Shown here piece after piece: positions 26,311-58,223 of a stretch of 64,000 bases of DNA. Position numbers and translations under genes: made by a program. The notes below the pieces were generated by a model, which searched no databases, had not been told where the DNA came from, and saw nothing but the letters and a program-made list of their open reading frames with translations. Origin of the DNA: Azonexus hydrophilus. GTDB lineage: Bacteria > Pseudomonadota > Gammaproteobacteria > Burkholderiales > Rhodocyclaceae. The first letter of the stretch is position 1, and each line of letters opens with the position of its first letter. The DNA lies in the NCBI RefSeq assembly GCF_001956855.1, contig NZ_MTHD01000003.1, forward strand, positions 476,647 through 540,646. Reading direction: 5' to 3'.

Positions 26311-26335
26311 GCAAGCCAGCCAAACGCCAGCCAGC
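26311..26335 (+). repeat. UTR element copy 1 (siderophore receptor leader)
   Basis: In mRNA sense, GCAAGCCAGC - CAAAC - GCCAGCCAGC. It lies between the Fur box and the receptor gene. Seven further copies occur in the window; see the matching repeat entries. Confidence 0.75.
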
Positions 26336-26440
26336 TTTTCCCCCAACCGTCTCGTTGTTGGGGCACCTGTCTGGTCACGGCCGTTTCACGTTGTGCGGTT
26401 TGTCCCGGGTTGCCCCGCAGCGGTTTTCCTGGATACGACA

Positions 26441-28726
26441 GTGAAACGAAAAGCCTCCGCAGCCATTTTTCCGGCCAGCTTCCGGACAACACGGGTAGTC
26501 AGCCCGTCGATGACCAAAACCAGCATTGCGCTGGGTATTTCCACGGCGATGCTCGCTCCGGCAAGCCTCCTGGCCGACGAATCTGCCAAGGAAGCGGAAA
26601 TGGATCCGGTCACCGTGGTTGAACGCGTGATCGATCACAATCCCTATGCCGAGCCAGATGCACCCTATAAGGCTCGCATCTCCGGCGATGAGCGGCGCAA
26701 GCGCCCCCTGGCTGAAACGCCGGCGACCATCAACGTCCTGACCAAGACCCAGATCGAGGATTCCGGCTACACGGATTTGCGTGACATCCTCGATACCCAA
26801 CCCGGTATCACGCTGGGTACAGGTGAAAACGGCAATGCTTTCGGTGACCGTTACATTATCCGCGGTCAGGAAGCACGCAGCGACGTCTTCGTCGATGGCC
26901 TGCGTGATCCCGGGATGAGTATCCGTGAGAGCTTTGCCGTCGAGCAGGTGGAAGTCTCCAAGGGCCCGAATTCAAGTTTTGCCGGCCGCGGTACTGTTGG
27001 CGGTGCGATCAACTCGATCACCAAACAGGCCACCACCGATTATGATTTCACCAAGCTATCGGTTGGTCTGGGTACCGATGACCATCGTCGCGTGACGGTT
27101 GATACCAACTACGCGTTGACCGATACCGTGGCGCTGCGCGCCAACGTTCTCTATGGTTACGAAGATGTGCCTGATCGCGCACCGGCCGACCGGGAGCGTA
27201 AGGGGGTGGCATTGTCGGCGCTGATCAAGCCGACTGATCGCTTGGACATCGTGCTTGATTACTACGGTTTTCGCGGTGAGGATCGCCCGGATATGGGCTC
27301 TTATCTGTACGGCACCGTGCCCAACCGCAAGCCGTTCAAAAATGCTCCGGTGTACGCTCAGGACAACGACTTCCTGAAGTCCGAGGTGGATACCCTGACG
27401 GCACGTCTCAAGTACCGCTTCAACGATCAGGTCCGCATCACCAATGCAACCCGTTGGGGCAAGTCGGAAAATGGTTATGTGGCAACCGGTGCTGGCTATG
27501 TCAGCGATACTACGCTCCGGCTGTCGACACACCAGGGCTGGCAGGAAGTCGATTACTTCGCGAATCAGACCAACCTGTTCGTCGATACCGAAATCGCCGG
27601 CATGAAGCACGAATGGAATTTCGGGCTGGAGTATACGGATCACGCGGTCCTCAACGGCATTTACTCAATCAATGGAATAACGGCAACGAATCAGCCCAGC
27701 GCAAATAATGTGGCGTTCGCCAATGTCGATGGGGCAATTGACCATAGCAATATCCGGAAATTCAACTGGGACCAGGATTGGCGTGCCAAAGCAATATCCG
27801 CCTCGATCATGGATACCGTTGATCTGAGCGATAAATGGACGGCTTTCGCTGGTCTGCGTTACGACCGGACGCGGATTTCCCTGAAAACCCAGACTGCCGC
27901 TACAGGGGTTTTGACGGGTGACTATTCCTACAGCGAAAGCATGTGGAACGGCCATGTTGGCGTGACCTACAAGTTCCTGCCGGATGCCAATGTTTACCTG
28001 ACCTACTCGACAGCCAAGGACCTCAATGGCGGCGAGTCGGACGTTGGTACCAGTGGCGGTTATGGTGGTCTCATCACCCTGAACGGACAGGTGGCTGGCG
28101 CGAAACCGGAAAAGACCGAGAATGTCGAACTGGGGACGAAGTGGAATCTGATGGGTGGCAAGCTGCTGGCGACTGCCGCGGTATTTCAGATCACCAAGAC
28201 GGATGTCATGGAGGCCTCCGGCTATACCTCGACCGGGACTTTCAATAGCGCAGCAAACCGTGTTCGCGGCATTGAATTCGGTCTGGCCGGTAACATAACC
28301 GACAAGCTGAGCGCCTTTGCCGGTCTGACCCTGATGGATGCGGAAGTCACCAAGTCGGCCAATTCGAACCACAAAGGCAAGACCCTGAGCAACTTTGCCG
28401 ACAAGTCGGCTTCGGCGCAGTTGCGTTACCAGCTCACCCCGGTATTTGCTTTCGGAACAGCCGTGAAGTACGAAAGCAAGAAATACGCAGGTGAGCCGGA
28501 CACCGCAGCCAGTTATAACGCGGCCGGACAATACAGTCAGCCGATCCCTGCCTATACCGTCTGGGATCTGTTCGCTGACTACCGTCTGAACAAGGCGGCC
28601 AAGCTGCGTGTCAACGTGGGCAACGTGTTCGACAAGGATTACTACCTTGCCGGCTACCGCTCGGGTTCGTTCCTCTACAAAGGGGATGCGCGCAATGCCC
28701 GGGTGACGCTCAATTACGAGTTCTAA
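26441..28726 (+). CDS. TonB-dependent siderophore receptor, Fiu-like
   Basis: 761 aa with a plug domain (ETPATINVLTKTQIED, RYIIRGQEARSDVFVDGLRD, SKGPNSSFAGRGTVGG) and a barrel ending YEF. The plug wording is that of catecholate-siderophore receptors (Fiu/CirA type). GTG 26441 gives an N-terminus with a long basic lead as seen in related receptors; ATG 26510 gives a shorter standard signal peptide and is an alternative. A Fur box precedes it, and piuC, the usual companion of fiu, follows two genes later. The exact siderophore is unknown. Confidence 0.85.
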   Translation: MKRKASAAIFPASFRTTRVVSPSMTKTSIALGISTAMLAPASLLADESAKEAEMDPVTVVERVIDHNPYAEPDAPYKARISGDERRKRPLAETPATINVLTKTQIEDSGYTDLRDILDTQPGITLGTGENGNAFGDRYIIRGQEARSDVFVDGLRDPGMSIRESFAVEQVEVSKGPNSSFAGRGTVGGAINSITKQATTDYDFTKLSVGLGTDDHRRVTVDTNYALTDTVALRANVLYGYEDVPDRAPADRERKGVALSALIKPTDRLDIVLDYYGFRGEDRPDMGSYLYGTVPNRKPFKNAPVYAQDNDFLKSEVDTLTARLKYRFNDQVRITNATRWGKSENGYVATGAGYVSDTTLRLSTHQGWQEVDYFANQTNLFVDTEIAGMKHEWNFGLEYTDHAVLNGIYSINGITATNQPSANNVAFANVDGAIDHSNIRKFNWDQDWRAKAISASIMDTVDLSDKWTAFAGLRYDRTRISLKTQTAATGVLTGDYSYSESMWNGHVGVTYKFLPDANVYLTYSTAKDLNGGESDVGTSGGYGGLITLNGQVAGAKPEKTENVELGTKWNLMGGKLLATAAVFQITKTDVMEASGYTSTGTFNSAANRVRGIEFGLAGNITDKLSAFAGLTLMDAEVTKSANSNHKGKTLSNFADKSASAQLRYQLTPVFAFGTAVKYESKKYAGEPDTAASYNAAGQYSQPIPAYTVWDLFADYRLNKAAKLRVNVGNVFDKDYYLAGYRSGSFLYKGDARNARVTLNYEF

Positions 28727-28741
28727 GCAAAACCTGTCGGA

Positions 28742-28770
28742 AACGGGCGAATTCAAGGAATTCGCCCGTT
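28742..28770. terminator. Perfect 13-bp hairpin between receptor and hydroxyacid dehydrogenase
   Basis: AACGGGCGAATTC and GAATTCGCCCGTT are perfect arms with a three-base loop. There is no T-run after it, so it may be a weak terminator or an RNA processing/stability hairpin rather than a strong stop. It ends seven bases before the next start codon. Confidence 0.5.
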
Positions 28771-28777
28771 GTCATTG

Positions 28778-29905
28778 ATGAAACAGAATCGTCCTCCGCT
28801 GACCGCCATTCCTGCCGAAATCCGTTGCGCGCAGGACTACGAAATCGTCGCCGAGCATTTCCTGGCGCCGGACCGTCACGCCTATATCGCTGGCGGTTGC
28901 GGGCGCGAGATAACTCTGGCGGCGAACCGTTCGGCCTTCGATGCCACCCGGCTCTGGCCGCGTCTGCTGCGCGAACTTGGTCGGGGGCATACGGCTGTCG
29001 ACCTGTTCGGGCGCCGGCTCGTGCATCCGATCCTGCTGGCGCCGCTGGCCTACCAGACCCTGGCGCATGTCCAGGGCGAGATAGATGTTGCCCGTGGCGC
29101 GGCAGCTACCGACAGTGGTTTCGTGCTGAGCACACTGGCGGGTCGGACGCTGGAGGAAGTGGCTCCGCACGCCGGCGAGGAGCGCTGGTTCCAGTTGTAT
29201 TTCCAGGCTGAGCGCAGGCATACGCTCGACCTCGTCAAGCGCGCCGAAGCCGCTGCTTACCGGGTGCTGGTGGTGACGCTCGACACCGCGATCAAGCTGC
29301 CCAGCCTGCGCGCGCAACGTGCAGGTTTTGTCATGCCGGAACAGGTTGTCGCCGCCAGCCTGACAGATTATCCGGAGCCGGCCCCGTGCGTCATCGAGCG
29401 CGGCCAGAGCCGGGTTTTCCAGGGGGTGATGGCACAGGCGCCTGGTTGGGACGACCTCGACTGGTTGTTGAGCCAGACCCGCCTGCCAGTGGTGGTCAAG
29501 GGCGTATTGCATCCGGACGATGCACGACAGTTGCAGGCGCGGGGTGTTGCCGGAATCATCGTATCCAATCATGGCGGGCGTTCGCTCGACGGCGTGCCGG
29601 CAAGCCTGGCGGCGCTGCCGGCGATCCGTGCTGCAGTCGGTGCCGGCTATCCGCTGCTGCTCGACAGCGGCATCCGCTCCGGCGGCGATGTTTTCAAGGC
29701 CCTGGCGCTGGGCGCCGATGCGGTGCTGGTCGGACGTCTGCAGATCTATGCCCTGGCAGTGGCCGGGGCGCTCGGCGTTGCCCACATGCTGCGCCTGCTG
29801 CGCGAAGAACTGGAAGTGTGCATGGCGCAAGCGGGCTGCGCGACGCTGGCCGATATCGGCCCGGCGATGATTTTCAAGGAAACGGAAGAGGAAACGAGAT
29901 GTTGA
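28778..29905 (+). CDS. FMN-dependent alpha-hydroxyacid dehydrogenase (LldD/lactate oxidase family)
   Basis: 375 aa. FMN-binding and active-site stretches are intact: [35 protein letters not shown], the active-site His/Arg in [34 protein letters not shown]. It oxidises an L-2-hydroxy acid. Its N-terminus has a GGCGREIT stretch where membrane LldD has a longer insert, so a soluble oxidase-like enzyme is possible. ATG 28778 has no clear ribosome binding site. It sits between a siderophore receptor and piuC, so its substrate may be linked to siderophore hydroxy acids. Confidence 0.85.
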
Positions 29906-30582
29906 TTCCAATTGAAGGCGTCCTGAGCAAGGACGAGGTCAGGCAATTCCGCGAGCAGCTTGCTGCGGCGCCCTGGGAAGACGGGCTGAAGACGGCCGGG
30001 ACGCTGGCGCGCGCGGTCAAGCGCAACCAGCAACTGGCGGATGGCTCGCCGCTGGCGGTCGAACTCGGCAACCGCATCCTGAGGAAGCTCGGAAACAACC
30101 CGCTGTTCATCTCGGCGGCGCTGCCCAGCCGTATCTACCCGCCGAAGTTCAATCGCTATGCCGATGGCGGGACCTACGGAGCGCATGTCGACAGCGCCGT
30201 GATGCAGGTACCGGGAAGCTCGGTTTCGGTGCGCAGCGACCTGTCAGCGACCTTGTTCCTGGCCGAACCTGATGAATATGACGGCGGCGAGCTGGAAATC
30301 GAGGGGCCGTTCGGCATCCAGGCGGCGAAGCTGGAGGCCGGCGACATGGTGCTCTATCCGTCGAGCAGCCTGCACCGGGTGATGCCGGTGACGCGCGGTG
30401 CGCGCATTGCATCGTTCATGTGGATCCAGAGCATGGTGCAGAACGACAGCTCGCGCACGCTGCTCTTCGATCTCGACCAGGCGATCCAGGGGATGAGCGG
30501 CGTCGTGCCGCCTGACGACGAGCGGCTGCTCAAGCTGACAGCGGTCTATCACAACCTGCTGCGCCAGTGGGCTCAGCCGTAA
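29899..30582 (+). CDS. piuC: PiuC/YbiX, Fe(II)/2-oxoglutarate-dependent PKHD-type hydroxylase
   Basis: 227 aa. The iron triad His96-x-Asp98 (GAHVDSAV) and His159 (SSSLHRV) is intact, with the 2-oxoglutarate Arg a few residues on (TRGARIASF). PiuC is found beside Fiu/PiuA siderophore receptors and helps iron release or siderophore handling by an unproven reaction. It overlaps the hydroxyacid dehydrogenase by seven bases and precedes an iron-binding protein gene. Confidence 0.92.
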
Positions 30583-30593
30583 GAGGAAGCAAA

Positions 30594-31610
30594 ATGATGA
30601 TGAAAAAACTGTTTCCCTTTCTTGCCGCCTTGCTTTCGCTCAATGCGGCCCAGGCACAGGAGAAGGTGCTCAACCTCTACTCGGCGCGCCACTATCAGGC
30701 CGACGAGGCGCTGTACAACGACTTCACCAAACAAACCGGCATCCGCATCAACCGCATCGAAGGCAAGGCGCATGAGTTGCTGGAGCGCATCCGCAACGAA
30801 GGCGCGAACAGCCCGGCCGATGTCTTCATTACCGTCGATGCCGCCAGTCTGGCCGTGGCCAATGCCTGGGGTATCTTCGCACCGGTCAAGTCGGCGGTGC
30901 TGGAAGCGCGGATTCCGGCATATTTGCGTTCGGAAACCTGGTTCGCCTTTTCGACCCGGGCGCGGATGATCATCTACAACAAGCGCAAGTTGAAGGCCGA
31001 GGATGTACCGACTTACGAGTCGCTCGCCGATCCGAAACTGAAAGGCCTGTATTGCAGCATTCCGGGCGGGCATATCTACAACCTGACCTGGGTTGCTTCG
31101 CAGATTGTCCATCAGGGTGAGGCCCGGGCCGAGGAGTGGGCCCGCGGGCTGGTCGCCAATCTGGCGCGCAATCCCAGGGGCGGCGATACCGATCAGATCA
31201 AGTCGGTGGCAACCGGTGAGTGCGGCGTGGCCGTCTCGAACAGCTATTACCTGGTGCGGATGATGGCCTCCGAGCGAGTCGAGGATCGTAACCTGGTCAA
31301 GCGGCTTGGTGTTGTCTGGCCCAATCAGGGCAGTTACGGGACACATATCAACGTTTCCGGCGCCGGCTTGGTCAAGACCAGCAAGAATCGTGAGGCGGCG
31401 ATACGTTTTCTCGAATATCTCGCCAGTGACGACGCGCAGCGCTATTTCGCCAATGGCAACAACGAGTGGCCGGCGGTGCCGACAGTCAAGGTCAGCAATG
31501 AAGAATTGGCGGAATTGGGTCAGTTCAAGGCCGACACGACATCCCTGGTGACGATCGCCAACCAGTTGCCGGCGGCGCAGAAACTGCTGGATCGCACAGG
31601 CTATCGTTGA
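30594..31610 (+). CDS. fbpA: Periplasmic Fe(III)-binding protein of an ABC transporter (FbpA/FutA family)
   Basis: 338 aa with a signal peptide to about AQA-QE. The fold signature LNLYSARHY, IEGKAHELLERI, and the paired tyrosines of the iron site in SNSYYLVRM are present. It ends with DRTGYR. No permease or ATPase gene is adjacent in this window, so partners must be elsewhere. AGAGGAAGC precedes the start. It is the last gene of the Fur-box operon and is followed by a strong terminator. Confidence 0.88.
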   Translation: MMMKKLFPFLAALLSLNAAQAQEKVLNLYSARHYQADEALYNDFTKQTGIRINRIEGKAHELLERIRNEGANSPADVFITVDAASLAVANAWGIFAPVKSAVLEARIPAYLRSETWFAFSTRARMIIYNKRKLKAEDVPTYESLADPKLKGLYCSIPGGHIYNLTWVASQIVHQGEARAEEWARGLVANLARNPRGGDTDQIKSVATGECGVAVSNSYYLVRMMASERVEDRNLVKRLGVVWPNQGSYGTHINVSGAGLVKTSKNREAAIRFLEYLASDDAQRYFANGNNEWPAVPTVKVSNEELAELGQFKADTTSLVTIANQLPAAQKLLDRTGYR

Positions 31611-31633
31611 GCATTCTGGCCGGCGTCAACGAA

Positions 31634-31660
31634 AACGGGAACCCTCGGGTTCCCGTTTTT
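31634..31660 (+). terminator. Rho-independent terminator after fbpA
   Basis: AACGGGAACC-CTCG-GGTTCCCGTT followed by TTT; a classic strong stop between the plus-strand iron operon and convergent bfd. Confidence 0.85.
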
Positions 31661-32099: not shown

Positions 32100-32582
32100 T
32101 CAGCCTTCGCCCGGCTCCATGTGCGCCTGCAGGTAATTCGGCAGGCTGACGTCTTCGATCAGACTTTGTTGCGTTTCCAGCCAGTCGATGGCTTCCTCGC
32201 AATGTTCCAGCAGGTCTTCCAGCAGTTCACGGCTGACGTAATCCTGCAGTTCCTCGCACAGGGCGATGGCTTCGATCAGCAGCGGGCGCTGGATGGTCTG
32301 CTCGTACTTCAGGTCGCCTTGCAGGCATTCGACGACGTTTTCGCCGATCATCAGCTTGCCCAGGTTCTGCAGGTTGGGCAGGCCTTCGAGGAAGAGGACG
32401 CGCTCGATGAGCTTGTCGGCTTCCTTCATGACGCGGATCGATTGCTTGTACTGGTAGTCGTTGAGCTTTTCCAGACCCCAGTTGCGGAACATGCGGGCAT
32501 GCAGGAAATACTGGTTGATCGAGGTCAGTTCGTTCTTCAGGACCTTGTTCAGGACTTCGATGACTTTCTTGTCGCCTTTCAT
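32100..32582 (-). CDS. bfr: Bacterioferritin, heme-binding subunit with degenerate ferroxidase site
   Basis: 160 aa four-helix ferritin subunit. Aligned by eye with E. coli Bfr, the heme ligand Met52 is kept (VMKEAD), as are Glu18 and Glu94, but the di-iron ligands Glu51, His54, Glu127 and His130 are replaced by Val, Glu, Cys and Ala. It should bind heme at the subunit interface but not oxidise iron alone. It is ten bases after the companion subunit, so the two probably co-assemble into a mixed 24-mer as in Neisseria and some pseudomonads. Confidence 0.9.
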
Positions 32583-32592
32583 GTCGCGCTCC

Positions 32593-33078
32593 TCAGGCCG
32601 GGCTGCCAGAGCCCATCTGGCTCTGCAGGTAGTTTTGCAGGCCGACCAGGTCGATCAGGCGGAGCTGCTTTTCGAGGAAGTAGGCGTGGTCCATTTCGGT
32701 ATCGTCGAGCTGGACACAGAGCATGTCGCGGGTCACGTAATCCTGGGCCTTCTCGCAGGCGGCAATGGCCTTCTTGAGGTCGCCATCGACTTTGTATTCA
32801 ACGGCCAGGTCGGATTTCAGCATGTCCGGTACGGTCTTGCCGATCTTCAGTGCTTCGCGCTTCGACAGGTCCGGCTTGCCTTCGAGGAACAGGATGCGCT
32901 GGATCAGTGCGCGCGCATGTTGGCGTTCGTGGTCGGATTCGTGGATCGATTTCTGGGCCAGTTCGTTGAGGCCCATGTCGGCATACATCTCACCATGGAT
33001 CAGGTACTGGTCAACGGCGGTCAGTTCGCCGGTGAGCAGATCGTTGAGGATGTCGATGATTTTCTTGTCGCCCTTCAT
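32593..33078 (-). CDS. bfr: Bacterioferritin, ferroxidase-competent subunit lacking the heme Met
   Basis: 161 aa. The di-iron centre ligands are all present (Glu18, Glu51, His54, Glu94, and the ExxH in TEMDH), but the heme-ligand position 52 is Arg (HERQH). It therefore oxidises and stores iron but cannot bind heme at the usual site. It heads the two-gene bfr operon. Upstream lie a copy of the C/A-rich leader element and, further off, a Fur-type site, a surprising combination for an iron-storage gene. Confidence 0.9.
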
Positions 33079-33103: not shown

Positions 33104-33133
33104 GGCTGGCTGGCGAACCTCGGCTGGCTTGCC
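33104..33133 (-). repeat. UTR element copy 2 (bfr leader)
   Basis: In mRNA sense (minus strand) GGCAAGCCAGCC - GAGGTTC - GCCAGCCAGCC, 26 bases before the bfr start. Repeat-to-repeat distance is three bases longer than in copies 1, 6 and 7. Confidence 0.75.
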
Positions 33134-40017: not shown

Positions 40018-40055
40018 AACTGGCTGGCGCATGTGCTGCGGATTTGGCTTGGCTA
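40018..40055 (-). repeat. UTR element, divergent copy 3 (STN receptor leader)
   Basis: In mRNA sense GTAGCCAAGCC... and GCGCCAGCCAGT are separated by about 17 bases, 53 bases before the receptor start. The match is looser than in the other copies. Confidence 0.4.
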
Positions 40056-40121: not shown

Positions 40122-41117
40122 TCAGCGATTTTTTTCGTGATCGACGATGACGAGGTAGGGCGTCAGCGTCCGGATGCGCAACTCGGGGAAGTTGTTGGCG
40201 AGCAGTTGCAGCGAACGGTCGGTGTCGTTCAGTGGCAGTACTGCCGAGACGTGCAGCTTGGCGATTGCGCTGCGGTCGTAGCGGATCAGGCCGGGCCGGT
40301 GGCGGGCGAGTTGGTCGAGGACTGCGGCCAGCGGGCGGTCGCGGACGACCAGCTGGTGCTGCTGCCAGGCGGTTTCCAGCATCTCGCCGTCAATCGCGGC
40401 CAGGCTGTTTTCGCTACCCGGGCCAAAGCGCAGGCTCTGGCCGGCTTCGACTACGACGGCTTGCTCCTGGCCATCGATGCGGACTTCGACCCGGGATTCG
40501 ATCATGCTGAGCACGGTCGCATCGTCCTGCCGGCTGACCAGGAAGCGGGTGCCGAGCGCGCGGATGTTGCCGTGTGCGGTACTGACGACAAAGGGGCGAC
40601 TGCTGTCGCGGGCGACATCGACGAGGATTTCGCCGCGCAGCAGGTCAACGGTTCTGGTTTTTGCATCGAATTCGAGGTCGACCGCAGAATTGCTGTTCAG
40701 CGACAGCTGGCTGCCGTCCGCCAGCGTTCTGGCGATCCATTCGCCGCTGCCGGTTTGCAGATCGGCGAACAGGATGTCGGCCGGCGCCGATTGCAGGGCG
40801 ATCCAGCCGGGCAGCAGCAGGGCGGCGGCCAGTGCGAGGGCGGTGGCGAGGCGTGGCGGTGGCCGCCGTGGCCGGGCGCTGTGGATGGCCTGGCGGGCTG
40901 GGCCCTGGGTGCCACGACTGCGGATGTCGTCAAGGCGGCCAAGCAGGCTTTCGAGATGGGCGGCGGCAGCGGCATGGCGTGGGTCGGCCTGTTTCCAGGC
41001 GCGGTAGCCGGCTTCGGCCTGTTGCCGTTCGCCGGGATCGTCGGCGCTCAGCCGGACGATCCAGTCGGCGGCCTGTTCGGCCAGCGTTTCCGGGGTGGCC
41101 GGCAGGCGGCTGTTCAT
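40122..41117 (-). CDS. fecR: FecR-family anti-sigma factor/sigma regulator
   Basis: 331 aa. A cytoplasmic N-terminal DUF4880 domain (EQAADWIVRLSADDPGE), a single membrane helix near residues 80-100, then the periplasmic FecR domain (LADGSQLSLNSNSAVDLEF, GEILVDVA, GNIRALGTRFLV). It receives the signal from the STN domain of the downstream receptor and controls FecI. ATG 41117 overlaps the fecI stop (ATGA). Confidence 0.9.
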   Translation of the reverse strand: MNSRLPATPETLAEQAADWIVRLSADDPGERQQAEAGYRAWKQADPRHAAAAAHLESLLGRLDDIRSRGTQGPARQAIHSARPRRPPPRLATALALAAALLLPGWIALQSAPADILFADLQTGSGEWIARTLADGSQLSLNSNSAVDLEFDAKTRTVDLLRGEILVDVARDSSRPFVVSTAHGNIRALGTRFLVSRQDDATVLSMIESRVEVRIDGQEQAVVVEAGQSLRFGPGSENSLAAIDGEMLETAWQQHQLVVRDRPLAAVLDQLARHRPGLIRYDRSAIAKLHVSAVLPLNDTDRSLQLLANNFPELRIRTLTPYLVIVDHEKNR

Positions 41118-41626
41118 GCCGGTTCGGCCGGGGCGCAGGCCAGCAGGCATTGCACCAGGTATTTGCGCACCATGCGCGGACCGACGCCGAGACGTTCCCC
41201 GATTTCGGCGTGCGTCAGTCCGTCCAGGTAATGCAGCAGAAAGGCTTCGCCGGCCTTGGCCGGGACGTTCTCGAGTGCAGCGGCGATGTGGGTCAGCGCC
41301 TCGACGGCGATCAGTGTTTCTTCCGGTGACGGAAAGCCGGTGAGCGGGTCGGCGAGCGCCGCCAGTTCCGCCAGATAGGCTTGCTCGATGGCTTGCCGGC
41401 GGGCGCGGTCGATGATCAGCCGCTTGGCGGTGGTGCTCAGGTAGGCGCGTGGCTCGCAGATCCCCGCCAGAACGTCGCGCGAGCCGATCAGGCGGAGGAA
41501 GGTGTCCTGGGCCACGTCGGCCGCGTGCTCCGGGCAGCCGAGCTTGCGCCGCAGCCAGCCGATCAGCCAGCCGTGATGGCTGGCGTACAGTTCATGCAGC
41601 GGGTCCGGACTGGCGGCGAGAGACAT
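41114..41626 (-). CDS. fecI: FecI-type ECF sigma factor
   Basis: 170 aa with sigma-70 region 2 (ELYASHHGWLIGWLRRKLG, DVAQDTFLRLI) and region 4 (FLLHYLDGLTHAEIGERLGV). Together with fecR and the STN receptor it forms a cell-surface signalling set. It lies 18 bases after feoA inside the larger operon, so basal levels should follow Fur control of that operon. Confidence 0.9.
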   Translation of the reverse strand: MSLAASPDPLHELYASHHGWLIGWLRRKLGCPEHAADVAQDTFLRLIGSRDVLAGICEPRAYLSTTAKRLIIDRARRQAIEQAYLAELAALADPLTGFPSPEETLIAVEALTHIAAALENVPAKAGEAFLLHYLDGLTHAEIGERLGVGPRMVRKYLVQCLLACAPAEPA

Positions 41627-48389: not shown

Positions 48390-48416
48390 GGCTTGCTGGC
48401 GACTGGCGCGCTGGCT
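48390..48416 (-). repeat. UTR element, variant copy 4 (tonB leader)
   Basis: In mRNA sense AGCCAGC - GCGCCAGTC - GCCAGCAAGCC; the same building blocks in altered order, 43 bases before the tonB start. Confidence 0.5.
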
Positions 48417-48446: not shown

Positions 48447-48629
48447 TTACTTGGTCAGGATCAGCTTGTTTTCACGGGTGACACGCAGCAGATAACGCTG
48501 GCCCGCGTGCTCGATTTCGACGGTATTGGCGCCGCGCAGTATCTGTTCGCTCCCCATCCGGGGCAGGTTGCCGGCTGCTGGCGTAGGGCTGGCGGGCGGA
48601 ACGGGTTTGGGCTGGCTGTTCATTTTCAT
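48447..48629 (-). CDS. hemP: Hemin uptake protein HemP
   Basis: 60 aa. The conserved C-terminal part, with ILRGANTVEIEHAG and RVTRENKLILTK, defines HemP/HmuP. In Burkholderia and Bradyrhizobium the family acts as a regulator of heme uptake genes. It is the first gene after a Fur box and heads the tonB-exbBD iron operon. A second HemP lies at 57012. Confidence 0.88.
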   Translation of the reverse strand: MKMNSQPKPVPPASPTPAAGNLPRMGSEQILRGANTVEIEHAGQRYLLRVTRENKLILTK

Positions 48630-48699: not shown

Positions 48700-49980
48700 T
48701 TATTCATCAAGCGCACAGGCTTCGCTGACGACGCGGCTGAAGCTCGATATGCCGGCGTTGCGTACGAACAGGCAGCGTTTGCCGGTACGTTTGCACTGCT
48801 CCTTGACCCGCCAATAGGCGTTGTGACTTATGCAACCAGCCTGGCAAATGACCAGGTCGGCGCTGGCCAGCACGCCGTCGATGCGGTGCAGGCTTTCCTC
48901 CAGGCCGCCGTCGTGATGCAGGAAGCGTCCGCCGGACTGCTCGACCAGCTGGCGATAGCCGTCGATGGCGCTGGCCCGGCCGCCAACGCAGAGGACCGAT
49001 TTGCCGGATAGCGTTTCGGCCGGGCAGGTAGTGGCGAGCGGGTTGCCCTCCTCCGGATTCTCCTGGGCGATGATCTGGTTGATGGTTTCTTCGGCATGGC
49101 GCAGGCGCTGCCGGAGATGCCAGATTTCCGTTTCCTGGTTTTCCGCCTGGGCACTCAAGGCTGTGCACCGTGCTTCGGCGTCGTTGGCGCGCCGTGACAG
49201 ATTCTGCCGGTCCTTCAGATCGGGCAGGCTGGCTCGCAGCTGGTCGACTTGCCCGGTGAGCGAAGCGATGCAGGCATCGCGACCGGCCAGTTCGGCGCGC
49301 AGGTCGATGATGCGCTGACCCAGCGCCTGCGTTTCGGATGATTTTTCAGCACGCAGCGACTCGTTTTCCTGGCGTGCCTTGTCCAGTTGCTGGCGCAGTT
49401 CGCGGTTTTCGTCCTTCAAGGCCTTCAATGTCCGGAGATCCGCCCGTGTACCGGTGCCGATCTGGTGCTGGATCATGTGAATGTCGCCATAAACGGCGTG
49501 CTCGAGCGTACTGTCGCAGGCCGGGTGACTCCAGGTGGCCCAGAGTGCCGCCGGGATTTCGCTGCCGCTGCTAGTGGCTTCCTGCCACAGGGCCTGCAGG
49601 GCGCTCGTGTCCTTGGCGGCCGCAAAGCGGCGGATGGTCTGGTGGAAGCGTTTTTCCAGCTGCTTTTGCAGTAATTCGGAGAGTTGACCGCGAGATTCGC
49701 AGGCGCCCACCGCCGTGGTGTGCAGTACGAAATCGGTGGTGTCATGCGTGAAGTGCATGACTTTCTTCATCAGCGCCCGCAGCTCGGCAACGTCGAAACA
49801 GGTGCCGATGATCGGGCAGTGGAACTTGTGCGAAACCTCCCACAGCTTGCGCCGTCGGGAAGGTTGTGGCGTTGGTGCAAGCGCCCGCGGGGCGTTGTTC
49901 AGCATGGATTCAAACAACTGCAGCGGCTGGCGGGTCGGGTTGAAGCTGCCGCCAGCGACATGAAAAGGGAAACCGGGCAT
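48700..49980 (-). CDS. DUF2325 coiled-coil protein under Fur-type control
   Basis: 426 aa. An N-terminal region (WEVSHKFHCPIIGTCF, with Cys and His) and a long central coiled coil (about residues 185-310) precede a C-terminal DUF2325 domain (LSGKSVLCVGGRASAIDGYRQL, LHHDGGLEESLHRIDG, VICQAGCISHNAYWRVK). DUF2325 proteins of this kind recur beside heme/iron uptake genes in betaproteobacteria; their function is not known. The Fur box and the C/A-rich element precede it. Confidence 0.8.
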   Translation of the reverse strand: MPGFPFHVAGGSFNPTRQPLQLFESMLNNAPRALAPTPQPSRRRKLWEVSHKFHCPIIGTCFDVAELRALMKKVMHFTHDTTDFVLHTTAVGACESRGQLSELLQKQLEKRFHQTIRRFAAAKDTSALQALWQEATSSGSEIPAALWATWSHPACDSTLEHAVYGDIHMIQHQIGTGTRADLRTLKALKDENRELRQQLDKARQENESLRAEKSSETQALGQRIIDLRAELAGRDACIASLTGQVDQLRASLPDLKDRQNLSRRANDAEARCTALSAQAENQETEIWHLRQRLRHAEETINQIIAQENPEEGNPLATTCPAETLSGKSVLCVGGRASAIDGYRQLVEQSGGRFLHHDGGLEESLHRIDGVLASADLVICQAGCISHNAYWRVKEQCKRTGKRCLFVRNAGISSFSRVVSEACALDE

Positions 49981-50005: not shown

Positions 50006-50035
50006 GCTGGCTTGCCGGGTTTCTGGCTGGCTTGC
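50006..50035 (-). repeat. UTR element copy 5 (DUF2325 leader)
   Basis: In mRNA sense GCAAGCCAGC - CAGAAACCCG - GCAAGCCAGC, directly after the Fur box and 26 bases before the start codon. Confidence 0.7.
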
Positions 50036-52834: not shown

Positions 52835-53814
52835 GGTCCGTAGAAGGCGTCGTCGGGCAATTTGCCGCCAACCAGCGCCGGGTTCTCGCCGTGCAGGCGT
52901 TCGAGGAAGAACTGCAGCTCCGGGCGCGCGGCGGCGATCGGCACGTGGCGCATCTGGCTGACCGCCAGCGAATCGGCGACGGCTTCCGGGCTGAGCAGGT
53001 CGATCCGTCTGGCGACCATTTCGCCGCAGGCCAGCGCGTTCTTCTGGCACCAGTTCAGCGAACGTTCGTAGGCGGCCATGATTTTTGCCTGCAATTCGCG
53101 GTCGACCGCAGCACGCCCGATGGCGGCGATGCCGGCTTGCGGGATGCGCGCCTCGCGCTGGTACAGCCGGCCCCATTCCTTTTGCAGGTCGACGCTGCGG
53201 TACAGATCCGGGGCGATCAGGCTGACCGGGAAGGATTTCGTCTTGCGCAGCACCATCGACACCGCCGGCTCGGCGAGTAGCGCGTGGTCAACGCGGCGGG
53301 TGACCAGCAACTGCATCGCATCGAGCGGCGAGGCGACGTAGCGCAGCTTGAAATCCTTCTTCGCATTCAGCCCCTGCTTTTCGGCGAGCAGTGCAAAGAC
53401 AATATCGGGCATGTCGGCGCGGAAGGGCATGGCGATTTCCTTGCCGCGGAAATCGGCCAGCGTCTTTGCCTGGCCGTCGCGCGACACCATCCACAGCACG
53501 CCCCAGGTCGAGATGTTGAGCAGGCGCAGCTTGACGCCGCGGTTGTAGAGGTTGGCAGCGACGTTGCTCGGCATCGCGACGAAATCGGCCTGGCCGCCGA
53601 GGGCGAGCACGCGCAGCTGGTCGGGGTCCTTCCAGACGCGGAACTCGATCTTGTCGGCGAGATCCTTCAAGGCGCCGCTGTCGATCATGTGGATCAGCGG
53701 CGTCGACACCGAGGCCGGCGGACCGGCCAGCACCAGTGAAGGCAGCCGGCCCGCCGCCAAGGCCGGCGTGGCCAGCGCAAGCACCGTCAACAGGGCGGCG
53801 AACCGGCGGCGCAT
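52831..53814 (-). CDS. ABC transporter periplasmic substrate-binding protein (NMT1/SsuA-like)
   Basis: 327 aa; signal peptide to about ALAA. The fold follows NMT1/SsuA (LVLAGPPASVSTPLIHMI, LALGGQADFVAMPSNVAANL, DFRGKEIAMPF, LLAEPAVSMVLRKTK). Its start touches the stop of the TonB receptor gene, so receptor, binding protein, permease, ATPase and NnrS form one operon. The ligand should be a small organic molecule or metal chelate that is scarce when iron is low. Confidence 0.85.
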   Translation of the reverse strand: MRRRFAALLTVLALATPALAAGRLPSLVLAGPPASVSTPLIHMIDSGALKDLADKIEFRVWKDPDQLRVLALGGQADFVAMPSNVAANLYNRGVKLRLLNISTWGVLWMVSRDGQAKTLADFRGKEIAMPFRADMPDIVFALLAEKQGLNAKKDFKLRYVASPLDAMQLLVTRRVDHALLAEPAVSMVLRKTKSFPVSLIAPDLYRSVDLQKEWGRLYQREARIPQAGIAAIGRAAVDRELQAKIMAAYERSLNWCQKNALACGEMVARRIDLLSPEAVADSLAVSQMRHVPIAAARPELQFFLERLHGENPALVGGKLPDDAFYGP

Positions 53815-55871
53815 CAGAAGCTCCCGCGCCAGGCGAGCTGGATGCTGCGGCCCGGGGCCTTGATCTCGTTGCCGGAAACGCCTTCGGTCAGGTGCTCATG
53901 GTAGGTCTTGTCGGCCAGGTTCTTGACGGCAAAGCGCAGGCTCTGGTTCTTGGCGAACTGCCAGGTCGCGCCAAGGTCGGCGGTGACGAAGCCGGCCGTG
54001 CGGTTTTCCGTGCCGCGGGTGAATTGCGTGGCGACGCGGTCCTGCTCGTCGACCAGGCGCAGCGTGAAGTCGGCCTTGACGCCGGGCAGCACGCTGCCCA
54101 GCCAGCCGAGCGAGATTTCATCGGCCGGCATCTGGAACAGCGGCTCGTCGAGGTCGTCGTTGTCGCCGCGGATGCGCGAGTAGCCGGCGTTCAGCCAGTG
54201 GCCGCCAGCGACCTGCCAGGCGACTTTCGCTTCGAAGCCCTTGATCGTCGCGCTGCCGAGATTGACCGTCTTCTTGCAATTGCCCGCGTTGGCCGCGCCG
54301 CAGGCGGCGGTGGCGGTGGCACCGGTCAGGATCTGGCCGGTGATGTAGTTGTCGATGCGGTTGTAAAACGCCGAAATCTGGTAGTTGACCGCAGCATTTG
54401 CCCCCTTGAGGCCGATTTCCAACTGGTCGGCCTTTTCCGATTCGACTTCCGGGCTGCCGGCGTAGAAATAGCCGTCGCCGCGCAGCCCGGATTCGTAGCG
54501 TTCGCGCATGCCCGGCGCACGGAAGGCGCGGGCGACGCTGGCGTAGGGACGCAGCAGCGGCGCTACTTCATAAACCGCGCCGAGACTGCCGGAGAAAGCG
54601 CTCTCCTTGTTGTCGAGGCCGCTGCTGCGGACGCCGTTGTTCATGCTGGCAGCGTCGCCGTCGACGCTGTCGTAGCGCAAGCCGGCGAGCAGGTTGAGCT
54701 TGCCGAAGCGCATGTCGTCCTGCAGGTAGGCGCCGAGCGCGCGGATTTCGGCATCCTGGAACGGGTTGTTCGCGCTCAGCGTGGTGAACGGTGCGCCGGT
54801 GGCCATGTAGCGATCCGGATTGCCGGTCATCTTCCAGGCATTGATGCCGAACGACAGCAGGTGCTGCGGATGCGCCAGCCAGTCGGCCTTGGCGTCGATA
54901 CCGTCGGTGCGGAAAGTGACCTGGTTGGTGACGATGTCGCGGCGGAGGTTGTTGGCATGGCTGTAGATGTAGCGTTCCATTTCCTGGCGGTAGACGCGCA
55001 GGTCAAAGTTCACTGGCGCGGCGCCATCGCCCGTGCGGTTGTAGCCGAGTTCGTAAAGGCGGCGTTCCTGCTTCGGCGAATGCACGGTGGTGCTGCCGAC
55101 CAGCGGGCTGGCGTGGGCGCGCGTCGAACCCGGATACCAGACGTCCTCGTCCTGATGATGCTGCGCCGAGACGCGAACTTGCTGCTGGCTGTCGATACGG
55201 AAACGGTACTGGCCGATGAAGGCATCGGAATCGTAGCCGGTACGGTCCACCTTGCCCTTCGGCGAGTCGTAATCGTCGATGCGGGCCAGCGAGGCGCCGA
55301 GCATCAGCGCATGGTCGCCCTGGCTGGCGTTGACCACCGCCGTACCGCGCCAGCCTTCGCTGGCGCTGTCGTAGCTGGCGCCGGCCTTGAGGCCGATGCC
55401 CGGGGTGAATTTTGCCTGCGGCATGAGCACGTTGATCGCGCCGCCGAGTGCGCCGGTGCCGTAGAGCACCGAGGCGCCGCCCTTGACCACTTCGACGCGC
55501 TCGGCCAGGCCGAGCGTCATGAACGATGCGACGGCGCCGGCCGGCTGCGCCGAATTGAAGCGCATGCCATCGACCAGCAGCACCGTGCTTTCCTTGCCGA
55601 GACCGCGGATCACCGGGTTCTGGCCCTGCGCGCTGTCGTTCGAGATGGCGATGCCGGGCTCGCCGCGCAGCGCATCGCCGACATTGGCAGCACCGCGCCG
55701 GGCGATTTCGTCGGCATCAAGGGTGGCGGTGGAAATTGGCGTTTCGAGATCGGCCGAGGCATAGCCCTTGGCAGTGACGTTGACGGCGGAAAGTGTCGTT
55801 TCTTCGGCGTTGACCGCAGAAAAGGCAAACATCAACGCCAGGGCAAGCGGGGTGAGGCGAGGCAGGTCCAT
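53814..55871 (-). CDS. TonB-dependent receptor linked to an ABC transporter
   Basis: 685 aa; signal peptide to about NAEE, TonB-box region (LSAVNVTA), plug (DEIARRGAANVGDALRGEPGI, IRGLGKESTVLLVDGMRFN, VKGGASVLYGTGALGG) and a barrel ending RGSF. A surface loop has two cysteines (TAACGAANAGNCKK). It heads the Fur-box operon with the ABC genes and NnrS. The ligand is not identified; heme, siderophore and metallophore are all possible. Confidence 0.88.
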   Translation of the reverse strand: MDLPRLTPLALALMFAFSAVNAEETTLSAVNVTAKGYASADLETPISTATLDADEIARRGAANVGDALRGEPGIAISNDSAQGQNPVIRGLGKESTVLLVDGMRFNSAQPAGAVASFMTLGLAERVEVVKGGASVLYGTGALGGAINVLMPQAKFTPGIGLKAGASYDSASEGWRGTAVVNASQGDHALMLGASLARIDDYDSPKGKVDRTGYDSDAFIGQYRFRIDSQQQVRVSAQHHQDEDVWYPGSTRAHASPLVGSTTVHSPKQERRLYELGYNRTGDGAAPVNFDLRVYRQEMERYIYSHANNLRRDIVTNQVTFRTDGIDAKADWLAHPQHLLSFGINAWKMTGNPDRYMATGAPFTTLSANNPFQDAEIRALGAYLQDDMRFGKLNLLAGLRYDSVDGDAASMNNGVRSSGLDNKESAFSGSLGAVYEVAPLLRPYASVARAFRAPGMRERYESGLRGDGYFYAGSPEVESEKADQLEIGLKGANAAVNYQISAFYNRIDNYITGQILTGATATAACGAANAGNCKKTVNLGSATIKGFEAKVAWQVAGGHWLNAGYSRIRGDNDDLDEPLFQMPADEISLGWLGSVLPGVKADFTLRLVDEQDRVATQFTRGTENRTAGFVTADLGATWQFAKNQSLRFAVKNLADKTYHEHLTEGVSGNEIKAPGRSIQLAWRGSF

Positions 55872-55890
55872 GAATGACTCCAGGTGGTGA

Positions 55891-55917
55891 GGCTGGCTGG
55901 CGTCTAGCTGGCTTGCC
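55891..55917 (-). repeat. UTR element copy 6 (TonB receptor-ABC leader)
   Basis: In mRNA sense GGCAAGCCAGC - TAGAC - GCCAGCCAGCC, 20 bases before the receptor start and 27 bases after the Fur-type site. Confidence 0.75.
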
Positions 55918-55943
55918 GGATTAGGAACACTATCAATTCTATC

Positions 55944-55964
55944 GATTGATAATCGTTCGCAATT
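55944..55964 (-). promoter_or_regulatory. Fur-type box upstream of the TonB receptor-ABC operon
   Basis: The AT-rich site GATTGATAATCG continuing TTCGCAATT, next to an overlapping dyad TATCAATTC / GATTGATA. Confidence 0.6.
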
Positions 55965-56017
55965 TGATCTGCCTTAATTTTCCCCGGGGCTTGCTGCTAT
56001 GTTTATGTTTTATATAT

Positions 56018-56048
56018 AAAAAACACGCCTTCTCGATGTCGGGCGTGT
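56018..56048 (-). terminator. Terminator of the small-protein operon
   Basis: On the minus strand ACACGCC-N12-GGCGTGT is followed by TTTTTT, 61 bases after the stop of the coiled-coil gene. Confidence 0.8.
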
Positions 56049-56062
56049 GCAGGGAAAAAAAA

Positions 56063-56087
56063 GCTGGCTGGCAGCTGGCTGGCTTGC
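56063..56087 (-). repeat. UTR element copy 7 (3' end of the small-protein operon)
   Basis: In mRNA sense GCAAGCCAGC - CAGCT - GCCAGCCAGC then TTTTTTTT. Unlike the other copies it lies between a stop codon and a terminator, so it is in a 3' UTR, in the same strand sense. Confidence 0.7.
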
Positions 56088-56108
56088 TCGAAGCGAGGGT
56101 GAGAAAAC

Positions 56109-56549
56109 TCAGTTGATCAGTTCGGCGGCCTGGCAGGTCAGGCGCAGTGCGAGATTGTCGCGTTCGCGCGCGAGGCGTTCGCACTCGCGATGGGCGGCGC
56201 ATATGGTCTTGTCGAGATGCCAGACGCGCTGGGCGGCGACGATCAGGTGTTCGTTGGCATCTTTCAGCGCCATCAACTGGCGCCCCAGTTCGATGATGGC
56301 CTGACCGGATTCAAGTTCGACAATGCGTGCGCGAAAATTCTCGCAACGCGTTTCCAGTGCCGCGATCCGGTTGGCTTGTTCGATGCTGCGACTGCTGTTC
56401 AGCGTCGCCATGCGCTTCTGGCTGGCGCGGGCCTGGCGCAGCGCATGCTGGAGTGCAGCGTTCTTGTTTTCCAGTTCGGCAATGCGCTCGTTGGCTGCAT
56501 CATCCGGTTCGCGTTCAAGCAGGGCGCGGTTTTCAAGCGGTGCAAGCAT
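56109..56549 (-). CDS. Small coiled-coil protein in a Fur-type operon
   Basis: 146 aa, almost all heptad-like coiled coil (AELENKNAALQHALRQARAS, IAALETRCENFRARIVELES) and no membrane segment. No named family is recognised. GGAGG lies right before ATG 56549, and the gene overlaps the end of the 67-aa gene, so it is the third gene of the operon that starts at the perfect Fur box. Confidence 0.7.
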   Translation of the reverse strand: MLAPLENRALLEREPDDAANERIAELENKNAALQHALRQARASQKRMATLNSSRSIEQANRIAALETRCENFRARIVELESGQAIIELGRQLMALKDANEHLIVAAQRVWHLDKTICAAHRECERLARERDNLALRLTCQAAELIN

Positions 56550-56736
56550 GGCGGGCCTCCGTGGTGCCAAGACGCTGGCTGGCGCGCTCGCACAGCCGGC
56601 GGGTGTCGTCATCGATCTCCAGGTCGCAGAGATGGTCGAGAAGGCGTACCGCGTTCAGTGCCGATTGACGGCAGCCGGTTTCTTCGTGGATCAGCAGCAA
56701 GCTCAATGTTGCAGCCCATAATTCGCAAGGTGGCAT
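56533..56736 (-). CDS. 67-aa hypothetical protein in a Fur-type operon
   Basis: No family is recognised. It is helical with three cysteines (PPCELW, TGCRQ, HLCDL) and a fourth downstream. AAGGAG lies seven bases before ATG 56736 and overlaps the stop codon of the preceding 24-aa gene. Its size, position and flavour are like the 88-aa gene at 57897. Confidence 0.65.
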   Translation of the reverse strand: MPPCELWAATLSLLLIHEETGCRQSALNAVRLLDHLCDLEIDDDTRRLCERASQRLGTTEARHACTA

Positions 56737-56747
56737 CGTGCGCTCCT

Positions 56748-56822
56748 TCAGGCAGAGGTTGCGGCGATCAGCAGCCAGAGCAGCAGCCCGGCGATGGCGG
56801 TATTGATCAGCAGACTGTTCAT
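56748..56822 (-). CDS. 24-aa single-pass membrane microprotein
   Basis: ATG 56822 opens a 24-codon frame starting MNSLLINTA with a hydrophobic core AGLLLWLLIA, ending at TGA 56748-56750; it is predicted as one membrane helix. GAGGTGCC precedes the start and a perfect Fur box sits 15 bases upstream. Its stop codon abuts the ribosome binding site of the 67-aa gene, so the spacing is operon-like. Function unknown. It is short enough to be missed by standard gene calling. Confidence 0.6.
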   Translation of the reverse strand: MNSLLINTAIAGLLLWLLIAATSA

Positions 56823-56836
56823 GTGGCACCTCATTG

Positions 56837-56855
56837 ATTGAGAACTGTTCTCAAT
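56837..56855 (-). promoter_or_regulatory. Perfect palindromic Fur box
   Basis: ATTGAGAACTGTTCTCAAT is a perfect 19-bp palindrome, 15 bases before the 24-aa gene. A second AT-rich Fur-like stretch lies near 56881-56900. Confidence 0.85.
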
Positions 56856-56920
56856 ATATCGCGAATTAGAACAAAGTCAAACAAGAATTACTATTATTTA
56901 CTCAAATGTCGTTTCCGGGT

Positions 56921-56951
56921 GGAGGGCGCCGGCGTGTGTTCGGCGCCCTCC
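56921..56951 (-). terminator. GC-rich hairpin after the second hemP
   Basis: GGAGGGCGCCG and CGGCGCCCTCC pair perfectly around a nine-base loop, 61 bases after the hemP2 stop on the minus strand. No T-run follows, so termination would be weak or Rho-assisted. Confidence 0.5.
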
Positions 56952-57011
56952 GGTGGAGCAGGCGGGGTCAGCGACCTGCTCCTGTTGCTCGGTGCTGGTA
57001 GTGCGAACTGC

Positions 57012-57236
57012 TTACTTGGTCAGGATCAGCTTGTCCTGGCGCGTAATGCGCAGGCGATAGTCGCTGCCGCAATGCTGGATGGAGATTTCGTTGCTGTTGC
57101 CGAACAGCGTCAGGCTGGAGATGCTGTTCGTGACCTGCGCTTCGCTGGCCGGCTTTTCCCGGTTCAGGCGCAGGGTGCTGCGCGGGCCGTTGGCATGCAG
57201 GAAGGGGGTGCGCAGCGTGCGGTTGCTGTTGTCCAT
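57012..57236 (-). CDS. hemP: Second HemP-family protein
   Basis: 74 aa. The C-terminal part (GSDYRLRITRQDKLILTK) ends like the HemP at 48447, while the N-terminal half differs. It starts 20 bases after the S4 paralogue, in the same Fur-type operon. Confidence 0.8.
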   Translation of the reverse strand: MDNSNRTLRTPFLHANGPRSTLRLNREKPASEAQVTNSISSLTLFGNSNEISIQHCGSDYRLRITRQDKLILTK

Positions 57237-57256
57237 GGTGTGCTCCGGAAGCAGGC

Positions 57257-57874
57257 TTACATGCGGGTGGCGTAATACTCGACGACGCGTTGCAGGTCGA
57301 GCGGGAAGGGGGCGGCATCGCCGTCCGGCAGATGGGTCAGGCGGGCCGTCTGGGTTTCGTGATCGAGACTGATCCATTGCGGGCGTTCCAGTGCCGGTTC
57401 TTCCAGCGTGGCGCGGACCAGGTCGATTTTCCGGCCGGCTTCGGTCGGGCCGAAGGCGTCGCCGATGCGCAGGCGGATCGACGGAATCGTGACGCGCTTG
57501 CCGTTGAGCTGGAAGTGGCCGTGGCTGACCAGTTGGCGGGCGGCCGGGATGGTCGGCGCAAAGCCGGCGCGGAACACCATGTTGTCGAGACGGCGTTCGA
57601 GCAACTCGACCAGTTTGTTGCCGGTGGCGCCACGGTCCTTCTTGGCATCGGCAACGGCGCGGCGCAACTGGCGCTCGGTCAGGCCATAGTTGTAGCGCAG
57701 TTTCTGTTTTTCCATCAACTGCTGGCCGAATTCCGACTTGCGGCCATTGACCTTGCGGGCGCCATGCTGGCCGGGAGGCTGGTTGCGCTCCTGCATGGAT
57801 TTGCGCGACAGGCCGGGCAGGTCAATGCCGAGGGCGCGCAGGACTTTCAGGCGGGGGCCGGTATAACGGGACAT
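57257..57874 (-). CDS. rpsD: Second ribosomal protein S4 (plastid/cyanobacterial-like), iron-operon member
   Basis: 205 aa full-length S4: N-terminal SRYTGPRLKVLRALG, PGQHGARK, EKQKLRYNYGLTERQL, the S4 RNA-binding domain LLERRLDNMVFRAGFAPTIP and ARQLVSHGHFQLNGKRV. There are no cysteines. Wording such as EKQKLR-YG-TERQL and APTIPAARQLV recalls cyanobacterial and plastid S4 rather than the proteobacterial alpha-operon protein. S4 binds 16S rRNA and starts 30S assembly. Lying between an 88-aa gene and hemP under a Fur-type promoter, it should be a paralogue made in iron limitation, not the housekeeping copy. Confidence 0.88.
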   Translation of the reverse strand: MSRYTGPRLKVLRALGIDLPGLSRKSMQERNQPPGQHGARKVNGRKSEFGQQLMEKQKLRYNYGLTERQLRRAVADAKKDRGATGNKLVELLERRLDNMVFRAGFAPTIPAARQLVSHGHFQLNGKRVTIPSIRLRIGDAFGPTEAGRKIDLVRATLEEPALERPQWISLDHETQTARLTHLPDGDAAPFPLDLQRVVEYYATRM

Positions 57875-57896
57875 GAAACTCTCTCTCTTTATATGG

Positions 57897-58163
57897 TCAG
57901 TGGGTTTGGCAACCCAGTGCGGTCAACGGGTAGAAATCGACAGGAATCGACGCTGGATGGCACTGCACGGCCTCCCAGCCGCCGAGGACTTCCTGCAAGG
58001 TGCTCTTGAGAAAGGGATTGATGCCGTCGATTTCGCTGACTCCGCGCAGATGTGCGCGCAGCGCCTCGGTCTTGTTGAACGTGGCGCCGCGCAGGGCGGA
58101 GGAGGACAGCAGGTGAATGACGGCCGCCAGTCGGAGTTCGAGGGGCATGTCGGCGTTTTCCAT
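57897..58163 (-). CDS. 88-aa hypothetical protein heading the S4/HemP operon
   Basis: No family is recognised. It is helical, beginning MENADMPLELRLAAVIHLLSS, with two cysteines in the second half (VQCHPAS, GCQTH). GGAG is seven bases before ATG 58163. It is the first gene after a Fur box and a copy of the UTR element. Confidence 0.65.
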   Translation of the reverse strand: MENADMPLELRLAAVIHLLSSSALRGATFNKTEALRAHLRGVSEIDGINPFLKSTLQEVLGGWEAVQCHPASIPVDFYPLTALGCQTH

Positions 58164-58189
58164 GGGGCACTCCAGTCGTTTCAGGGAAA

Positions 58190-58223
58190 CTGGCTGGCTC
58201 ACCGGAAATGCGGCTGGCTGGCT
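58190..58223 (-). repeat. UTR element copy 8 (88-aa gene leader)
   Basis: In mRNA sense AGCCAGCCAGCC - GCATTTCCGGTG - AGCCAGCCAG, directly downstream of the Fur box and 27 bases before the start. Confidence 0.7.

Follow-up and report, generated by a model that had tools for sequence, protein, structure and literature searches.

A two-arm direct repeat, GCAAGCCAGC-spacer-GCCAGCCAGC, whose arms are built on AGCC repeats, recurs among the iron genes of a 64,000-nucleotide stretch of Azonexus hydrophilus DNA (assembly GCF_001956855.1, contig NZ_MTHD01000003.1, positions 476,647 to 540,646), referred to here as the window and numbered from its first base. An earlier note on this DNA had listed eight copies, and exact and mismatch scans uphold six of them. 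Against the form GCAAGCCAGC-N3..20-GCCAGCCAGC, the copies at 26311 (plus strand) and at 33105, 55892 and 56063 (minus strand) show no mismatch, that at 50006 (minus) shows one, and that at 58189 (minus) shows two. In 60 first-order Markov sequences of window length, sites with at most two mismatches occurred at a mean of 0.017 per window, and the six copies lie far above chance. The other two claimed copies, at 40018 and 48390, have four mismatches each; because the null sequences give a mean of 4.65 sites per window at that level, neither draws support from sequence alone, and both were rejected as true copies. They occupy 40019..40052, ahead of a TonB receptor, and 48391..48415, between hemP and tonB, both on the minus strand. 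The 48390 stretch is nearly identical in the closest relative (G009), and since the surrounding region is equally so, this likeness tells little.

Genes behind the repeat and its identity

All six upheld copies read in the same direction as the gene next downstream, as had been claimed; five are leaders and the sixth lies in a 3' untranslated region (UTR). The element at 26311..26335 (plus strand; exact arms, 5-base spacer) stands in the leader of a TonB-dependent receptor with Plug and beta-barrel domains in Pfam, whose longest frame is 26393..28726 and whose true start is probably further in. The remaining copies and their genes are on the minus strand. At 33105..33132, exact arms with an 8-base spacer lie just past a TACAAT -10 hexamer, in the leader of a bacterioferritin-type ferritin (MKGDKK..., 32593..33078; Pfam); a second ferritin-like gene (32109-32582) follows directly. 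The copy at 50006..50035, with one mismatch and a 10-base spacer, is in the leader of a gene encoding a DUF2325 protein (48700..49980; Pfam), behind which the order is hemP-tonB-exbB-exbD. A third exact leader copy (55892..55916; 5-base spacer) precedes another TonB-dependent receptor (53814..55871; Pfam). The copy at 58189..58222, with two mismatches and a 14-base spacer, leads an operon headed by a small open reading frame (ORF) of 88 amino acids (57897..58163), followed by a ribosomal protein S4-like paralogue (57257..57874; Pfam) and a second hemP. The genome has two hemP genes, both in the window, encoding proteins of 60 (48447..48629) and 74 (57012..57236) amino acids that are likely trans-acting partners of the element. 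The S4-like paralogue is an RNA-binding protein in an iron operon, situated between an element-bearing leader and hemP.

The copy in the 3' UTR (56063..56087; exact arms) lies directly behind an ORF of 167 amino acids and just ahead of a T-run and a terminator-like hairpin. The same flank, with an exact copy, occurs in two other species (G044 and G009; loci L004, L238 and L276). As the earlier note had it, the copies at 26311, 55892 and 56063 have identical arms and a 5-base spacer, and the copy at 33105 has exact arms with a longer spacer.

By sequence and by place, the repeat is the known HmuP-responsive element (HPRE). The HPRE of chuR in Chromobacterium violaceum is printed in PMC9131926 as CCCGCAAGCCAGCCGACAGCCAGCCAGCG, 26 bases ahead of the ATG, with a citation of Amarelle et al. 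(2019). Its arms are identical to those of the four exact copies, and the 5-base spacer is common; it is on this match of arms and spacing that the assignment is based. In PMC9241770 the HPRE is described as a motif of direct repeats that belongs to alpha- and betaproteobacteria. In Chromobacterium records, too, TonB receptor genes are preceded by these arms with a 5-base spacer. The likeness further includes the leader position before TonB receptors and a HemP-family gene in the same genome. The earlier note's remark that no named element matches can therefore be set aside, whereas its suggestion of an RNA- or DNA-binding protein fits, because the HPRE is the element of HemP/HmuP/ChuP.

According to Amarelle and co-workers, HPREs are said to lie always upstream of heme receptors and to correlate with HmuP. 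The present element differs in being found also ahead of the bacterioferritin gene, the DUF2325 gene and the S4-paralogue/hemP operon, and ahead of a Dps-type gene in relatives. It differs too in the long-spacer versions of relatives, which often contain a hairpin, and in the 3' UTR copy common to three species.

Distribution in the genome, the genus and beyond

Genome-wide (3.6 Mb), the exact form with spacers of 3-20 bases has four matches, all of them in the window, and a reversed control has none; the view that this is a shared sense leader element tied to iron genes, not a random one, is thus borne out. A loose form, AGCCAGC-N1..28-AGCCAGC, gives 28 matches as against four in the reversed control. 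Seven of these are in the window (six non-coding, one within a frame). Among the 21 outside it, 14 fall under frames with a Pfam domain and six under frames of at least 158 codons without one; an open frame alone is not proof of coding, and long frames also cover several leader copies. The one match left is in the leader of a 4Fe-4S ferredoxin gene. It reads AGCCAGC CAATC AGCCAGC (L031, 1501-1519; G000:C14:105049) and is flanked by CCGCCC and GGGCGG, resembling a stem loop. A still looser pattern, AAGCCAGC-N3..20-AGCCAGC, matched at least 72 of 100 genomes with frequent hits in reversed controls and was not used for counts.

The exact element is present in 48 of 60 Azonexus/Dechloromonas genomes and in two of 40 genomes from other genera of the order, with reversed controls empty in all 100. 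The scan of complete genomes and relatives proposed in the earlier note thus gives a conserved element, with a loose link to Fur (see below). There are 85 exact elements in the 100 genomes, 83 of them in the genus, including the four from this genome. Targets were assigned by BLAST with ten reference proteins, the frame taken at each place being the longest to begin at most 160 bases downstream on the same strand; the reference proteins taken from outside the window are TonB receptors or Ferritin-like in Pfam. Such a gene was assigned at 81 of the 85 places: one of three types of TonB receptor at 51, bacterioferritin at 29 and a Dps-type protein at one. Three of the four unassigned elements share the 3' UTR flank of the 56063 copy, and the fourth is in another genus, in a genome without hemP.

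Bacterioferritin leaders without the exact form were read in 19 of 20 genomes with a full-length bfr, the gene in the twentieth starting 8 bases from a contig end. A recognisable two-arm element was seen by eye in 15 of these 19, which brings the genus total to 44 of 48 bfr leaders (29 exact, 15 near). Elements with at most three mismatches occur in 20 of 30 DUF2325 leaders read (the best 30 of 43 matches; shuffled leaders, 1/1200) and in 10 of 18 leaders of the small-ORF/S4/hemP operon (shuffled, 0/720); three partial or weak matches were dropped. One leader beyond these 10 (L358) carries the element by eye, and another (L346) has none in the 100 bases read. DUF2325 homologues are found in 40 of the 60 genus genomes, several of them near hemP.

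Across GTDB species genomes, the exact form with a spacer of 3-12 bases matched at least 116 stretches. Among the matches listed are 80 loci with 81 elements, of which 27 precede TonB receptors, 13 Dps-type genes and seven bacterioferritin genes; 34 are unassigned. One of the latter (L097) is a receptor leader that runs off the available DNA, and many others lie inside long open frames. The name Dps for the L060- and L067-type proteins is a putative one based on sequence features, the Pfam assignment being a Ferritin-like domain. Twelve of the 13 Dps-type cases listed are from Rhodobacteraceae (Yoonia, Roseovarius, Marivita, Loktanella, Pelagimonas, an uncultured Roseobacter and uncultured Rhodobacteraceae), and one is alphaproteobacterial. 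All 13 of these genomes have hemP, no more than 3 kb away from the dps element in 12 (the exception is G104). A slightly looser two-arm pattern has five other matches in these 13 genomes, all inside open frames that are 100 codons or longer.

The element and hemP tend to occur together. In a sample of proteobacteria outside the genus from which near-duplicates had been dropped (25 of 32 genomes with assigned elements, and 25 of 33 with unassigned matches, of which 24 were searched), hemP accompanied leader-type elements in 24 of 25 genomes; where the match was unassigned, it was found in 16 of 24 (p=0.011). Within the genus, hemP was detected in 50 genomes, of which 45 have the exact element; three of the other 10 have it too (p=1.9e-4).

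Leader architecture and promoter signals

In bfr leaders the element has a nearly constant position. A TAnnnT hexamer ends 9-11 bases ahead of it in 28 of 29 leaders, while 13% of shuffled leaders have such a hexamer anywhere within 3-24 bases. This spacing would start the element near +2 to +4 of the RNA, that is, within the first few bases of the predicted transcript. In 10 of 11 leaders of the 26393-type receptors the hexamer lies 14-17 bases from the element, and in eight of 10 leaders of the 53814-type, mostly 18-20 bases from it; these positions are weak evidence, because about half of shuffled leaders also have the hexamer. Leaders of the third receptor type (L140-type) show no clear -10 (TAnnnT in 5/30; shuffles, 23%). 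In many of them (L040, L049, L055, L056, L058, L275 and similar) an inverted repeat like CGAAC-N4..8-GTTCG was seen by eye to end directly at the element; it may be a binding site or fold as a 5' hairpin. The longest frame mostly begins about 20-34 bases past the element; in outliers, for which the true start is in doubt, the distance ranges from 5 to 108.

The earlier note had placed five of the copies behind a Fur-type site and ahead of a start codon. Five copies are indeed leaders, but only those at 26311 (14/19, p<0.01) and 50006 (12/19, p=0.01) have Fur matches that beat shuffled sequence, scored against the 19-base consensus; the copies at 55892 (12/19, p=0.16), 58189 (10/19) and 33105 (9/19) do not. 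A match of at least 12/19 is found in six of 29 bfr leaders (shuffles, 2.6%) and in seven of 30 L140-type leaders, a level that shuffles reach in only 3-4%. Because a good match is missing from most leaders of both kinds, and those of dps have an Irr-type box in its place, Fur dependence was rejected as the organising rule. The box, TTAGAA-N3-TTCTAA, is present in 13 of 13 dps leaders and resembles the ICE, which has the form TTTAGAA-N3-TTCTAAA. The ICE is named in PMC3413700, according to which Irr acts as a repressor when iron is depleted in the Rhizobiales examined there. The dps leaders resemble that alphaproteobacterial control of iron storage in their box and differ from it in having an HPRE 39-46 bases downstream, a combination described in none of the open-access papers that were found.

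Spacers ahead of the DUF2325 gene and the S4/hemP operon are mostly at least 10 bases long, and such spacers often contain a hairpin. A perfect stem of at least four pairs occurs in 19 of 27 distinct long spacers and in 8.9% of shuffles. Fifteen of the stems are CCGG-N4-CCGG, and removal of the hairpin leaves four bases between the arms in 15 long spacers; the other four stems are ACCG/CGGT, CCGGG/CCCGG, GCTG/CAGC and CGGT/ACCG. The 20-base spacer of a TonB receptor leader in another genus (L283) contains GGGG-CCT-CCCC. In the short-spacer class, stems of at least three pairs are not enriched in the spacer (9/54, as against 11% in shuffles); stems of at least two pairs are found in 54 of 54, trivially, as the tested segment included flanking GC on both sides. 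The hairpin spacers fit recognition of a pair of RNA arms kept a fixed distance apart, and spacers that vary and bear hairpins fit RNA recognition better than a DNA site of fixed phase.

An ECF-type sigma factor gene (41114-41626, minus strand) also lies inside the iron island of the window, adjoining feoB.

HemP as candidate partner, and the alternatives

Taken together with published work, these observations suggest that the HPRE is likely a binding site which HemP would use, probably on the mRNA, to raise expression of TonB receptors and of the iron-storage genes bfr and dps. In PMC9131926, ChuP, of the HemP/HmuP family, binds heme and is required for full chuR and vbuA RNA levels. By analogy with the ChuP and HmuP studies, the partner is likely HemP, and its action is likely post-transcriptional and positive on the receptors. 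The architecture of the bfr and dps leaders is the same as that of the receptors, and it is by extrapolation from this that both storage genes are predicted to respond, with the same sign. The C. violaceum regulon is alike in that a heme-binding member of the HemP family acts on more than one HPRE-led TonB receptor gene; two receptor targets (chuR and vbuA) are described there, whereas the sequences here point to three receptor types in the genus and to storage genes.

A sequence of events may be envisaged in which transcription would be governed by Fur, with Irr in its stead in the alphaproteobacterial cases, and the element would come to lie at the 5' end of the message. HemP, for which heme status is the likely input, would then bind both arms and increase stability or translation. 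Heme or iron status would in this way set the levels of receptor and storage proteins jointly, downstream of promoter control by Fur or Irr; it is the published binding of heme by HemP homologues that would give the circuit this input. Since the element is found on one hemP operon of the window as well, HemP would further regulate the operon that encodes it.

Several observations weigh against so direct a reading. The presence of hemP is unspecific, as shown by the 16 of 24 comparison genomes that have it. One genus genome, 93% complete (G023), has bfr and an exact element and no hemP hit; two others are weaker cases of exact elements without a hemP hit (G008, 89% complete; G058, 77%). The association within the genus is confounded, since five of the 10 genomes without hemP are less than 90% complete and most of them lack bfr as well, and shared ancestry swells every count made across the genus. 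Conversely, four of the 48 bfr leaders have no element despite hemP (G014, G021, G039 and G056). The two strong long-spacer copies of the window have no clear hairpin, and the hairpin-bearing sequences of relatives are themselves related. RNA binding by a HemP protein is not among the findings of PMC9131926. HemP is a repressor in Stenotrophomonas, according to PMC9241770, and by the same token its action on bfr and dps may be negative.

A different use of the element by the same protein has precedent. HemP/HmuP proteins are described as DNA-binding transcriptional activators in Bradyrhizobium and Burkholderia (PMC9131926, PMC9241770 and PMC11442138), and the element could instead be an operator in the DNA, immediately past the promoter, to which HemP (along with Fur or Irr) or some other iron regulator binds as a transcription factor. 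The element of bfr leaders does hug the promoter, and CCGG-N4-CCGG is an inverted repeat in DNA as well as a hairpin in RNA. Spacers of 4 to 8 bases, or of 10 to 17 with a hairpin, lack the helical phasing of an operator, however, and a copy in the 3' UTR of three species is an odd place for one. ChuP, moreover, failed to bind DNA in gel shifts, chuR had no promoter in front of it in that study, and action on the 5' UTR was proposed, as PMC9131926 reports. An operator thus seems unlikely, though still a serious contender. An unregulated feature of the 5' end, which would stabilise the RNA or belong to the transcription start and be retained through promoter duplication among iron genes, is a decidedly improbable alternative. 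The constant place of the element near the predicted RNA start in bfr leaders and its presence on paralogous receptors would suit such a feature; its recurrence before the unrelated bfr, dps, DUF2325 and S4-operon genes, with differing flanks, spacers and promoters, and its span of alpha- and betaproteobacteria in company with hemP would not.

The earlier note took the element for single-stranded bait and, as one of its options, for the target of a small RNA carrying GGCUGGC; such an RNA would act on iron genes in the manner of RyhB or PrrF. The bait was rejected on folding predictions, in which the element is slightly more paired than shuffled sequence (mean unpaired probability 0.41 over 81 leaders, as against 0.53). 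C-rich repeats at a 5' end are plausible pairing sites, and BrrF of Burkholderia is processed from the 3' end of hemP (PMC7377471). A search of both strands of the genome, however, revealed no antisense non-coding match to the two arms, and the window has no Rfam match at gathering score. The first arm alone has 27 genome matches (17 in the reversed control), of which one outside the window falls outside every open frame of 80 codons; this frame test is loose, as it also covers four of six arm matches in the window's own non-coding elements, and the search applies to seeds of 10 bases or more. This lone 10-base complement (L379, around 1481-1555) lies upstream of an H-NS-like gene. It is not conserved: six of 59 other genus genomes match the region, with alignments that start at or beyond the end of the 10-mer. 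Receptors and storage genes are, besides, usually opposite targets of such RNAs. Shared targeting by a small RNA is accordingly not supported, and must be considered very improbable indeed.

Regulation by HemP through the HPRE, the reading preferred here, invites comparison with the animal iron regulatory protein (IRP) and iron-responsive element (IRE). If the prediction holds, both systems would place one mRNA element, read by one protein, on uptake-receptor and ferritin messages. Sequence, protein and structure are unrelated, direct-repeat arms standing in place of the IRE hairpin, and the HPRE is not a member of that family. None of the 29 frames of the window that were compared with Pfam encodes an aconitase. 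More tentatively, and with some doubt, HemP and the HPRE might be a bacterial counterpart of IRP and IRE: a heme-sensing RNA-binding protein that acts on the same leader of receptor and ferritin-family messages, its own hemP operon included, and so balances import against storage post-transcriptionally. Were this true, bacterioferritin in Azonexus/Dechloromonas and Dps in Rhodobacteraceae would be the storage targets of such a case.

The HPRE has figured in few papers, apparently only before heme or siderophore receptors as far as these could be found, and among the top-ranked open-access papers none ties the HPRE or HemP to bfr or dps; the print literature could differ. What looks new is thus the list of targets, bacterioferritin in a betaproteobacterial genus and dps in alphaproteobacteria, together with the hairpin variant. 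The exchange of spacer for hairpin affords a concrete structural prediction for recognition of the RNA. Natural targets of opposite physiology also make the mode of HemP action, on RNA or DNA and as activator or repressor, directly testable. With storage genes among its targets and hemP nearby, what had been a switch for heme receptors becomes a candidate post-transcriptional regulon for both the entry and the storage of iron, and since the element stands ahead of genes of both kinds, it is likely that one small protein co-ordinates the two.

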